From positions 1 through 25,348 of the IMG/VR virus record IMGVR_UViG_3300032316_000745: 25,348 nt of DNA, one strand, 5' to 3'. How positions within the stretch are numbered: the first letter of the stretch is position 1; each line of letters starts with the position of its first letter. The notes under the pieces are model-generated. The model ran no database searches. It was not told where the DNA came from and saw only the letters and a program-made list of their open reading frames with translations. Below, piece by piece: positions 17,109 to 25,348 of this stretch. Both the position numbers and the translations under genes were made by a program. Source of the DNA: a virus.

Positions 17109-17294
17109 GTGGGAAAATTTGTTCCTAAGTTTCGTCCATTTGACGAAGAATATTCTAATGAATATAATTCATCAAAGGAATTTAATAGAAACAAAAAGCG
17201 TAAAAAAGAAGCCGCAGAATTACGGAGAATGCGCCAACGTCAACATGAAGATGATGATTATGGAAATCTAGCAAAACGCTACAGTAAGTTGTAA
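17109..17294 (+). CDS. Small basic helical protein, GTG start
   Basis: 61 residues, highly charged: EFNRNKKRKKEAAEL then RRMRQRQHEDDDYG. The GTG start is chosen because CGGAG (17095-17099) is upstream and no ATG follows in frame until residue 39. The central helix is amphipathic and positively charged, and could bind nucleic acid. No known family is assigned, although such K/R-rich proteins are common in phages. Confidence 0.6.
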   Translation: MGKFVPKFRPFDEEYSNEYNSSKEFNRNKKRKKEAAELRRMRQRQHEDDDYGNLAKRYSKL

Positions 17295-17315
17295 AAAAAC
17301 AACAAATGACTTGAC
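17293..17315 (+). repeat. 23-base promoter-upstream repeat, copy 1
   Basis: Seven A residues, then CAACAAATGACTTGAC, ending inside the -35. Copy 2 at 18293-18315 is identical except at one position (A/C). The A-tract may serve as an UP element. The repeat implies the two promoters derive from one another or share a regulator. Confidence 0.75.
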
Positions 17316-23183: not shown

Positions 23184-23212
23184 ATTATGGCGGATGGGCG
23201 TGAAAATGGCAA
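23184..23212 (-). promoter_or_regulatory. Candidate internal minus-strand promoter
   Basis: On the minus strand: TTGCCA (23212-23207), 17-base spacer, CATAAT (23189-23184). The -35 is the same TTGCC type as the other promoters of this block. The start site near 23177 leaves a 25-base leader before the ATG at 23152. The -10 is one base off consensus and lacks the extended TG. Confidence 0.55.
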
Positions 23213-23239
23213 CCTAGTACCTTAGTTCTCCAGCCACGT

Positions 23240-23255
23240 GCTGGATCAATCCAGC
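23240..23255 (-). other. Inverted repeat across a stop codon
   Basis: GCTGGAT-CA-ATCCAGC, seven pairs with a 2-base centre, spans the stop codon of the 73-residue gene. A second overlapping arm (CCAGC at 23230-23234 with GCTGG at 23240-23244) allows an alternative fold. It lacks a T run, so it may stabilise or attenuate the operon mRNA rather than terminate it. Confidence 0.4.
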
Positions 23256-23483: not shown

Positions 23484-24233
23484 TTAAACGGATGCCATCA
23501 TAATGGCGGGGTATTTTACAAAACCAGTGGTATCTTTTTTGGCTTTGCCTTTGGCATATAAGCCAATAACCGAACCTTTTGGATCCAGAAAACGGAGGTC
23601 CGATTCATCGCCATTAAAAACTGGCATATTAAGATAATCGGCTGGCATTGGGAGGGTCTTTTTAATACCAAACACCACAGCCACATTATAGCCTTGGGCA
23701 ATAGCCTTGGTTACGTCATTATCATTACCATCAGCGGCTGAGAATGTCAGGTGATAATTGGGATAATCGGCGATTTTACGTCCGAGAATCTTGGTATAAT
23801 CGTAGAATTGAATTTCAGGGAATGCCATGAAAATGTTTTTATATTCCACACCATTACGGATGGCGGCATACTTTTCAAAGGCTAGGTCCGAAGTGCCATT
23901 AAGGCGAATCACTGGGACCATATTGATTTTGGCGGATTGTTTAATGGCCAATTCAATATCCTTGACCAGCCATTCCATAAAGCCGGTGCGAGCCTCGAAA
24001 AACATTTGGGTTTTGCGGATTCGAGCCTGCTGGATAACGTTGGTTGTCTCGCCTTTTTTGAACATGCCACCACGTCCTGCGAGGTTCAGGCAGGCTGCCG
24101 TGCAACCTTTGGTCCGCTTGGCGCAGGTCTCAAAGCCGGACAGGTCGGCTGGGGCGAGGTGCAGGATGTAGGTATTGTAACCTTGAGCCATGCCCTTGAG
24201 GACCTTAGGGTTGCCAGTGGAGAGGAGGTTCAT
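23484..24233 (-). CDS. GP88-like phage protein (Cys-rich, possible TIM-barrel)
   Basis: 249 residues starting at 24233 with AAAGGAAC upstream. The front half holds C-x6-C-x3-C (Cys37, Cys44, Cys48) in ETCAKRTKGCTAACLNLAGRG, then RIRKTQMFFEAR, VPVIRLNGTSDLAFEK, FPEIQFYDYTK, YHLTFSAADGND and NVAVVFG. This order matches my recollection of the Pfam family Gene product 88, unknown in function. Successive strand endings (VIRLNGTSD, QFYDYTK, LTFSAA, AVVFG) suggest a TIM-barrel, and the cysteines could bind a metal or Fe-S cluster. It is the first gene of the minus-strand operon, under a strong promoter. Confidence 0.8.
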   Translation of the reverse strand: MNLLSTGNPKVLKGMAQGYNTYILHLAPADLSGFETCAKRTKGCTAACLNLAGRGGMFKKGETTNVIQQARIRKTQMFFEARTGFMEWLVKDIELAIKQSAKINMVPVIRLNGTSDLAFEKYAAIRNGVEYKNIFMAFPEIQFYDYTKILGRKIADYPNYHLTFSAADGNDNDVTKAIAQGYNVAVVFGIKKTLPMPADYLNMPVFNGDESDLRFLDPKGSVIGLYAKGKAKKDTTGFVKYPAIMMASV

Positions 24234-24263: not shown

Positions 24264-24291
24264 ATTATACCAGAACCAGCGGGAATGGCAA
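24264..24291 (-). promoter_or_regulatory. Strong promoter of the minus-strand operon
   Basis: On the minus strand: TTGCCA (24291-24286), 16-base spacer, TATAAT (24269-24264) with extended -10 TGg. Ten bases upstream of the -35 lies the shared 14-base element (24315-24302). It is divergent from the promoter at 24340, with about 48 bases between the two -35 hexamers. Confidence 0.85.
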
Positions 24292-24301
24292 CCATCCTCG
24301 G

Positions 24302-24315
24302 AATACTTGACCGGA
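24302..24315 (-). repeat. Shared promoter-upstream element, copy 1
   Basis: TCCGGTCAAGTATT on the minus strand. It recurs at 24764-24777 and 25040-25053 on the + strand. Here and at 24764 it lies exactly 10 bases before a TTGCCA -35; at 25040 only 2 bases before TTGACA. Confidence 0.8.
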
Positions 24316-24339
24316 AGAATGGAGAACTATAGTGCTATA

Positions 24340-24367
24340 TTGCCATTCTGGCCTGCTATGATATAAT
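24340..24367 (+). promoter_or_regulatory. Promoter of the 78-residue acidic gene
   Basis: TTGCCA (24340-24345), 16-base spacer, TATAAT (24362-24367), extended -10 aTGa. It lacks the 14-base element on its own side. Transcription from about 24374 gives a 25-base leader ahead of the ATG at 24399. Confidence 0.85.
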
Positions 24368-24398
24368 AACGTCATTGTAAACGAAACGAAAGTGAAAA

Positions 24399-24635
24399 AT
24401 GAAAGTAGTACAAACGTATTCAAGTGTGGAATGTAATGAGTATTCTGTATTCAATTCTGACAATGTTCAGGTTGCATACTATGTTGAACACTATGTTCAC
24501 CCAATTGATGAAGAAGTATTAGAAACCCCGGTCTTCGAGATATATTATGATTACAATGAAGAAGACGATGAATATGAAAGTTCTCTTATTTCTGAGAATT
24601 TTGACGATATTCAGGAAATAATCGATTCGTTCTAA
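24399..24635 (+). CDS. Very acidic small protein, DNA-mimic candidate
   Basis: 78 residues with about 21 Asp/Glu and only one Lys and no Arg, so a net charge near -20. It is also rich in Tyr (YYVEHYVHP, EIYYDYNEEDDEYE). The charge density resembles DNA mimics such as T7 Ocr, which block restriction enzymes or other DNA-binding proteins, but no sequence similarity is claimed. It has its own promoter, a modest ribosome site (GAAAGTGA) and its own terminator, the layout of an individually regulated early gene. Confidence 0.7.
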   Translation: MKVVQTYSSVECNEYSVFNSDNVQVAYYVEHYVHPIDEEVLETPVFEIYYDYNEEDDEYESSLISENFDDIQEIIDSF

Positions 24636-24639
24636 TCTA

Positions 24640-24664
24640 ATAACCCAGCAACGGGCTGGGTTAT
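24640..24664 (+). terminator. Hairpin terminator, 10-bp perfect stem
   Basis: ATAACCCAGC (24640-24649) and GCTGGGTTAT (24655-24664) pair perfectly around AACGG. It follows the acidic gene's stop by a few bases. The downstream T content is low (CTCTTG), so efficiency may be moderate. The next promoter's -35 begins only 4 bases later. Confidence 0.75.
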
Positions 24665-24667
24665 CTC

Positions 24668-24695
24668 TTGCCTTCCCTGCTGGTTGTGGTATAAT
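24668..24695 (+). promoter_or_regulatory. Promoter P1 upstream of the 70-residue gene
   Basis: TTGCCT (24668-24673), 16-base spacer, TATAAT (24690-24695), extended -10 TGg. The spacer shares GCTGGTT and TGG with the minus-strand promoter at 24264. An ATG (24703) lies seven bases after the -10, in frame with the gene at 24823. Confidence 0.8.
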
Positions 24696-24763
24696 TGGTA
24701 CCATGATTCGAAGCAAAGGCGGGGTGGACACGGAGGCTGGGCGCCATAATAATAACCCTCCAC

Positions 24764-24777
24764 TCCGGTCAAGTATT
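24764..24777 (+). repeat. Shared promoter-upstream element, copy 2
   Basis: TCCGGTCAAGTATT, identical to the copies at 24302-24315 (minus) and 25040-25053. Ten bases separate it from the -35 at 24788, the same as for copy 1. Confidence 0.8.
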
Positions 24778-24787
24778 GCCAGCATGG

Positions 24788-24815
24788 TTGCCAAACCAGC
24801 TGGTACCTGTATAAT
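24788..24815 (+). promoter_or_regulatory. Promoter P2 of the 70-residue gene
   Basis: TTGCCA (24788-24793), 16-base spacer, TATAAT (24810-24815). The expected start site (about 24822) is at or one base before the ATG at 24823, so the mRNA would be leaderless. The sequence around the -10 (CCTGTATAATCCAA, then CCC/TCC) repeats at the 25056 promoter. Confidence 0.82.
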
Positions 24816-24822
24816 CCAACCC

Positions 24823-25035
24823 ATGATGAACACAAAACCCTACACTGTAGAACACCACGACAAAACCATGGAATTCCATGTGATCCGCTGGTCCCCATTG
24901 TCCAACGGTGTCCACACCGGTGAGTCCGTAGAACGGTTCCAATGTGAGGATGAGGCCATGGAAGTGGCTCGAATCCTGAACCAAGCCGAGGAACTGAGCC
25001 TGTACCTGGACCAGTCCTGCGAATTTGATTCTTGA
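24823..25035 (+). CDS. Small acidic protein, possibly from a leaderless mRNA
   Basis: 70 residues (MMNTKPYTVEHHDKTMEFHV then IRWSP); the second ATG at 24826 is an alternative start. The frame is open back to the ATG at 24703, but that upstream part contains promoter P2 and the 14-base element, so it is probably not coding. The C-terminal half is an acidic helix (FQCEDEAMEVARILNQAEEL). There is no Shine-Dalgarno before either ATG. No family is recognised. A longer 110-residue product from P1 cannot be excluded. Confidence 0.6.
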   Translation: MMNTKPYTVEHHDKTMEFHVIRWSPLSNGVHTGESVERFQCEDEAMEVARILNQAEELSLYLDQSCEFDS

Positions 25036-25066
25036 CCAATCCGGTCAAGTATTGGTTGACAATACT
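25031..25066 (+). promoter_or_regulatory. Two overlapping inverted repeats, operator candidate
   Basis: CTTGACC-AATCC-GGTCAAG (25031-25049) and AGTATTG-GTTGA-CAATACT (25048-25066) are both perfect seven-base arms with five-base centres, arranged head to tail and sharing bases 25048-25049. The second covers the -35 of the promoter at 25056. The shared 14-base element (25040-25053) bridges them. This looks like an operator, or a hairpin ending the upstream gene, whose stop codon lies at 25033-25035. Confidence 0.6.
25040..25053 (+). repeat. Shared promoter-upstream element, copy 3
   Basis: TCCGGTCAAGTATT, identical to the copies at 24302-24315 (minus) and 24764-24777. It lies only 2 bases before the -35, eight bases closer than the other two copies. 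Confidence 0.8.
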
Positions 25067-25083
25067 ACCAGAACCTGTATAAT
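25056..25083 (+). promoter_or_regulatory. Promoter of the last, partial gene
   Basis: TTGACA (25056-25061), 16-base spacer, TATAAT (25078-25083). Unlike at 24788, the base triplet at the equivalent start position is ATA, and the real ATG (25116) lies about 26 bases downstream after AAAGGAAAG. Confidence 0.85.
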
Positions 25084-25115: not shown

Positions 25116-25348
25116 ATGTCCCGTTTTGAATTGATCTCCGAGTCTGATGCCGTGGAACGGTATGAGGACATCCTGGACTCCGAAGGTCCTCTGACCCTCG
25201 CCGGCATGTCCTATGCCCGCTCCTACGTCCTGCGTGAGGTCGACCCGGTAGCCTATCGGTGCGGTTTTAATGATTTTGTGGATTCCTTGTCTGAGGATGG
25301 CATTTTCGTAGAAGGTCTCACCGAGGATGAGATGGAGTCTGAGGATGA
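25116..25348 (+). CDS. Acidic phage protein, 3' end outside window
   Basis: 77 complete codons, open to the window end. It starts with AAAGGAAAG upstream. The protein begins MSRFELISESDAVERYEDIL and continues AGMSYARSYVLREVDPVAYR, then CGFNDFVDSLSEDG, ending in a very acidic run (LTEDEMESED). The net charge is strongly negative with about five Arg. The DPVAYR-x-GF-x-D pattern recalls small unnamed proteins of proteobacterial phages. The GC content here (39 of 60 in line 25201-25260) is far above the left of the window. Confidence 0.75.
   Translation, partial: MSRFELISESDAVERYEDILDSEGPLTLAGMSYARSYVLREVDPVAYRCGFNDFVDSLSEDGIFVEGLTEDEMESED

Follow-up and report, generated by a model that had tools for sequence, protein, structure and literature searches.

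The dyad of the P2 Ogr and P4 Delta activators lies near -55, and these proteins contact the alpha subunit of RNA polymerase; the sites of phi29 p4 are inverted repeats. Cluster A mycobacteriophages carry stoperators, short promoter-linked sites with GTCAAG that are numerous, asymmetric and found genome-wide. Late promoters of P2 and P4 are Ogr-dependent and have the consensus TGT-N12-ACA (PMC3931495), while phi29 p4 is described as an upstream regulator that activates or represses phage promoters by touching the alpha subunit (PMC4461284). In T4, early promoters have strong -10, TG and -35 elements, and middle promoters have a MotA box at -30 in place of the -35 (PMC2988021).

Here we compare with these systems a set of promoters from a 25-kb viral fragment (the window; 25,348 nucleotides in full) that encodes ribonucleotide reductase, ThyX, a primase, a T4 RNase H-like nuclease and GP88. 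Judged by its genes the window phage is T4-like, because its 733-aa protein and primase match T4-like cyanophages at 36-46% identity and a 166 kb relative (record G017), whose GP88 is 94% identical to that of the window, encodes gp32, UvsY and a RegA-type translational regulator. No close cultured relative was found, and comparison of the GP88 region with the phage collection at the DNA level gave no match to known phages. The GP88-family protein (PF17338, Pfam E 2.5e-37; 23484-24233, minus strand) is the first gene of an operon read from 24291 on the minus strand.

The first-pass annotation described a 14-base element, TCCGGTCAAGTATT, placed just upstream of the -35 of three promoters. All three exact copies are present, at 24315-24302 on the minus strand and at 24764-24777 and 25040-25053 on the plus strand. 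The window holds no further copy with 0-2 mismatches, TCCGGTCAAGTATT is the sole 14-mer found three times in it, and any 14-mer occurred three times in 2 of 100 first-order Markov shuffles. The three promoters do share a 16-bp spacer, with a perfect TATAAT as -10, and the gaps to the -35 are 10, 10 and 2 as described; the hexamers are TTGCCA, TTGCCA and TTGACA, so that the third is not the TTGCCA that had been given for it. When copies were aligned across relatives, TCCGGTCAAGTATT proved to cover only one arm of a 27-bp dyad together with its centre. Sequences upstream of promoters in related phages served to train a symmetric profile, and this converged on a 13-base half-site, AATAcTysAsCnn, which is followed by one centre base and the inverted half-site (13+1+13; full consensus AATAcTysAsCnn-N-nnGsTsrAgTATT). 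In some copies the conserved arm is distal to the promoter, which places the promoter on the opposite side. With this profile five window sites score above 14 bits, every one at a promoter, and together they serve six promoters; the next-best non-promoter site scores 9.1. The unit is thus a 27-bp dyad, present at five sites for six promoters, where three copies of a 14-bp element had been proposed.

The predicted operator at 24302-24328 (AATACTTGACCGG-A-AGAATGGAGAACT, 24.4 bits) is common to two divergent promoters: on the minus strand the TTGCCA at 24291-24286 follows at gap 10 and opens the GP88 operon promoter (TTGCCA-16-TATAAT, 24264-24291), and on the plus strand the TTGCCA at 24340-24345 follows at gap 11 and opens a TTGCCA-16-TATAAT promoter (24340-24367) that precedes a 78-aa ORF at 24399-24635. 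The plus-strand predicted operator at 24751-24777 (AATAACCCTCCAC-T-CCGGTCAAGTATT, 24.1 bits) lies at gap 10 from the TTGCCA at 24788, in a TTGCCA-16-TATAAT promoter (24788-24815, plus strand) preceding a small ORF that ends at 25035. The strongest one, at 25027-25053 on the plus strand (GATTCTTGACCAA-T-CCGGTCAAGTATT, 28.7 bits), runs at its left end into the stop codon of the ORF before it and lies at gap 2 from the TTGACA at 25056; its promoter (TTGACA-16-TATAAT, 25056-25083, plus strand) precedes an ORF starting at 25116. Two diverged predicted operators had been overlooked, as had the divergent plus-strand promoter served by the 24302 copy. One, at 24639-24665 on the plus strand (AATAACCCAGCAA-C-GGGCTGGGTTATC, 16.5 bits), has gap 2 to the TTGCCT at 24668 of a TTGCCT-16-TATAAT promoter (24668-24695, plus strand), which precedes a conserved short non-coding stretch at about 24702-24750. 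The other, at 23224-23250 (ATTGATCCAGCAC-G-TGGCTGGAGAACT on the minus strand, 15.9 bits), has gap 11 to the TTGCCA at 23212 of a minus-strand TTGCCA-17-CATAAT promoter (23184-23212), and an orthologous site precedes the promoter at G017:89096.

The two inverted repeats that had been cited as operator support are both present (25031-25049, CTTGACCAATCCGGTCAAG; 25048-25066, AGTATTGGTTGACAATACT), and they differ in standing. The first is the core of the 27-bp dyad and retains that role. The second lies outside the element and is not conserved at the orthologous G017 promoter, which reads AGTATTGGTTGACAAACCT; we rejected it as part of the element and regard it as probably incidental.

The short non-coding stretch forms a separate observation. 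About 35 nt long (ATTCGAAAGC..GGACTGGGGTGGACGYGGAGGCTG; window 24690-24750, plus strand), it stands shortly after a TATAAT-like hexamer in 26 of 26 kept copies and occurs in L183, L184, L186, L187, L013, L054, L084, L109, L195, L197, L199, L204 and others. Its reading frame is not conserved, no consensus fold emerged and Rfam gave nothing above threshold. It may be a small RNA or else a conserved 5' leader.

A profile scan of 1.70 Mb of loci, in which no promoter was required, returned 130 sites of at least 18 bits compared with none in the shuffled DNA of 60 loci; since related phages share descent, such site counts are not independent events. A promoter lies within reach at 114 of these 130 sites as against 3.45% of random positions, an association that is not fully independent, as promoter-upstream sequences trained the profile and the 14-mer itself was used to pick many of the loci. 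Two divergent promoters are served by 16 of the 130. In eight long records (1.15 Mb) we found 40 sites of at least 17 bits compared with 1.2 in shuffled DNA, 37 of them with a sigma70-type promoter close by, and no site came up in 0.51 Mb from three related records that lack the element. When the whole viral collection was searched for a half-site and promoter with any gap of 0-25 allowed, only gaps of 2, 8, 10 and 11 were returned; this search and the long-record scan lessen the selection bias in the promoter association, but do not eliminate it. Promoter-linked sites are confined to one region per record, of about 0.7-6 kb. As a spacing control, the pattern with one extra base between the halves had 0 viral matches and 1 bacterial match, compared with 21 viral stretches for the correct spacing. 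The scanned stretches of S-RIM8, HTVC008M and Limnohabitans phage DC31 held no convincing site.

The gap between dyad and -35 is discrete, at 1-3 (39 cases), 8-12 (113) or 42-43 bp (13), with few others in the range 0-130. This puts the dyad centres 15.5, about 24 (23.5-24.5) and 56.5 bp upstream of the -35, or at about -50, -58 and -91 from the start as counted from the -10 hexamer. By arithmetic, the three centre distances differ by no more than about 1.5 bp once whole turns of 10.5 bp are subtracted, that is, they fall on roughly one face of the helix. The 42-43-bp class first surfaced as promoter-less sites: 10 of the 11 strongest of these have a promoter at 42-43 bp, and the remaining one has a weak promoter at gap 11. 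The modules of this class (L023, L055, L110, L137:5217, L141, L143, L144, L191, L193, L196 and L200) combine near-perfect 27-bp dyads with promoters of the TTGACA-16-TATAAT type. The motif ATCAANNNNTTA, which resembles what we take to be the IHF consensus, occupies one and the same place between dyad and -35 in 7 of the 11 modules (L023, L055, L110, L137, L144, L193 and L141), compared with a background of 0.5%; the eleven are the ten re-examined sites plus L141. L196 has the variant ATCAACCGCTTA, which makes eight modules if that spacer is counted, and the other three carry near-matches. Because the 42-43-bp modules are related by descent, an IHF bend in them is only a lead.

The earlier proposal of a common operator for a promoter set that includes the divergent GP88 operon is, in this larger form, strongly supported because of the fixed spacing, the clustering and the recurrence in many phages. 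The dyad is a new operator family of a general kind already known, and P2 Ogr and phi29 p4 are its nearest working parallels. Like the Ogr and Delta promoters, those described here are phage promoters with a conserved upstream dyad, which in P2 and P4 binds a small activator. They differ in the 27-bp 13+1+13 sequence, in the three alternative positions and in the retention of a -35; with AATAcTysAsC in place of TGT-N12-ACA, the sites do not belong to the Ogr/Delta class. The likeness to p4 is that of an upstream regulator of phage promoters, whereas the sequence and the phage group are different. Like T4 early promoters, the dyad promoters have -35, TGn and -10 elements that suit the sigma70 polymerase of the host, but a G+C-cored dyad stands in place of the A+T-rich UP region. 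Stoperators share with the dyad the many copies of a conserved promoter-linked site; a stoperator assignment was rejected, as the dyad is confined to one region per record and is not asymmetric and dispersed.

We consider it likely that the 27-bp dyad is bound by a homodimeric factor at three set upstream positions, from which it touches host RNA polymerase and determines how strongly the GP88 cluster is expressed. A homodimeric transcription factor would recognise the two-fold symmetric operator, and the bound dimer would be centred on one of three points, 15.5, about 24 or 56.5 bp upstream of the -35 of a sigma70-type promoter. The dimer would touch the host RNA polymerase, probably at the alpha C-terminal domains, and in this way set the output of a small gene cluster around GP88 across a large T4-like phage group. 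We infer protein binding, polymerase contact and early or middle timing alike, the term 'early' being read from promoter type. A polymerase-touching protein is favoured because the positions are fixed and roughly helically phased upstream of an intact promoter, which a simple blocking repressor would not need. Between activation and repression we lean somewhat towards activation, because the TTGCCA typical of the class is a weakened -35, one base off consensus. The TATAAT and extended -10 (TG) elements are strong at dyad promoters, so these promoters could fire unaided.

One rival, which is partly shared with the explanation that we prefer, bears on timing and on where the factor originates. 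An early phage protein would take the MotA/AsiA role, and the promoters would be switched on after the immediate-early genes, as a middle class. This is possible, though we rate it well below an even chance. It fits every spacing result, and a phage-made activator must itself be produced first. Unlike T4 middle promoters, each promoter here retains a recognisable -35, with TTGCCA or TTGACA 16-17 bp from TATAAT, and on this ground membership of the T4 MotA/AsiA class was rejected.

That the dimer shuts promoters off, silencing strong promoters from the dyad by polymerase contact and not by covering them, seems to us unlikely, if by no means far-fetched. The near-consensus -10 and TG elements mean that activation is maybe unneeded, upstream repression through the alpha subunit is known for phage proteins, as with phi29 p4 at A2c (cited in PMC4461284), and T4 early shut-off is independent of AsiA (PMC2988021). 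A repressor would not, however, require three helically phased upstream positions, nor a -35 that is systematically TTGCCA, and the 56.5-bp position with its IHF-like motif resembles an activator arrangement.

An RNA-level reading starts from the PeSLs of T4-like phages described in PMC4503421. Here the palindrome would be a stem-loop that terminates the upstream gene and forms, with an early promoter, a mobile shuffling module. PeSLs and the present sites have in common a palindrome with an early promoter between genes in plastic regions: the palindrome stands directly upstream of a strong early-type promoter in T4-like phages, an early sigma70-type promoter accompanies 37 of 40 sites, and one window site in five, with the repeat at 25031-25049, is terminator-like. 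The arms, however, do not covary within sites, with an identity of 7.45/13 inside a site compared with 7.98 when arms are shuffled between sites; as selection by total score lowers arm identity slightly, this test excludes strong covariation and is not an exact measure of its absence. The halves are chosen independently, which argues that the dyad is a protein operator and not an RNA stem-loop. Pairing is poor at many sites, the -35 spacing is fixed at 2, 8-12 or 42-43, and the base identity of the arms is kept across phages. The absence of arm covariation, together with the sites common to divergent promoters, speaks against a PeSL or terminator, and we regard this reading as very improbable. 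An intrinsic terminator was rejected separately, as a stem with a T run is found at only one of the five window sites and the arms lack covariation. The palindrome thus differs from PeSLs in its predicted action as a protein operator. That the repeat is chance or duplicated functionless intergenic DNA, to which the three window copies within 750 bp could point as duplicates, has next to no probability, given the same dyad and spacing in dozens of divergent contigs with differing surroundings, and a chance repeat is refuted by the promoter-linked site counts relative to shuffled DNA and by the discrete gaps.

For the dimeric factor that we favour, family scans of 150 and then 55 G017 proteins, covering the 25 most frequent families per scan, and co-occurrence yielded no convincing DNA-binding regulator, though a weak match may have escaped at this depth. 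The window encodes one candidate, with a C-terminal AbrB/MazE-like DNA-binding domain (PF04014; 17910-18281, plus strand; E 3.9e-5, just under the curated cut-off); the protein is kept in several of these phages, with a distribution that does not match the dyad. An NrdC.10-like AAA ATPase (L209:6018-6899, minus strand, in G017) is found in 7 of 8 records that have the dyad and in none of the 3 that lack it, and has no recognisable DNA-binding domain. As its gene lies directly downstream of a dyad promoter in several records, it is probably a target and not the regulator. A search for an Ogr-type zinc finger, CX2CX22CX4C, found only an acidic zinc-ribbon protein of other spacing, and a similar protein occurs in G014, which is without the dyad.

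Relatives without the 27-bp dyad have other palindromes before the GP88 promoter. The commonest is GTTGY-N6-RCAAC, with 165 sites in the first loci, 120 of them at promoters, and among the matches listed in a whole-collection scan it is very common before sigma70 promoters in IMG/VR phages. Across the eleven long records its centre is mostly found 15 or 24-26 bp upstream of the -35, the corresponding distances of the 27-bp dyad being 15.5 and 23.5-24.5; the wider collection shows a sharp peak at 15 bp, with the other distances more spread out. The -35 is TTGCCA in 62-74% of promoters with the 27-bp dyad compared with 20-28% of GTTGY promoters. One genome may hold both dyads at different promoters, and in G017 the 27-bp sites occupy 84.6-89.1 kb, most GTTGY sites falling outside this stretch. 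The window has a GTTGY-N6-RCAAC copy at 17288-17303 before a plus-strand promoter at 17311, and a degenerate copy before 18311. A third palindrome, ATTGGAATA-N17-TATTCCAAT, spans the GP88 promoter region in L140, L141, L143, L144 and L151. We tentatively suggest, with confidence a little short of even, that the two unrelated dyads form a two-operator code that would split non-late promoters into two separately controlled regulons, each with its own dimeric factor, in a large uncultured T4-like group. Positions at 15 and about 24.5 bp upstream of the -35 would be common to both dyads, and a remoter one, probably bent by IHF, would be available in addition to the 27-bp dyad.

Phage takeover of bacterial transcription has its model in the T4-like phages, and this model is built on early promoters of the UP type and the MotA/AsiA switch for middle transcription. 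A wide uncultured T4-like group would instead use predicted dyad operators at helically phased positions. The half-site profile may serve as a direct regulon finder in any such genome, and the dyad as a bait sequence for the factor.
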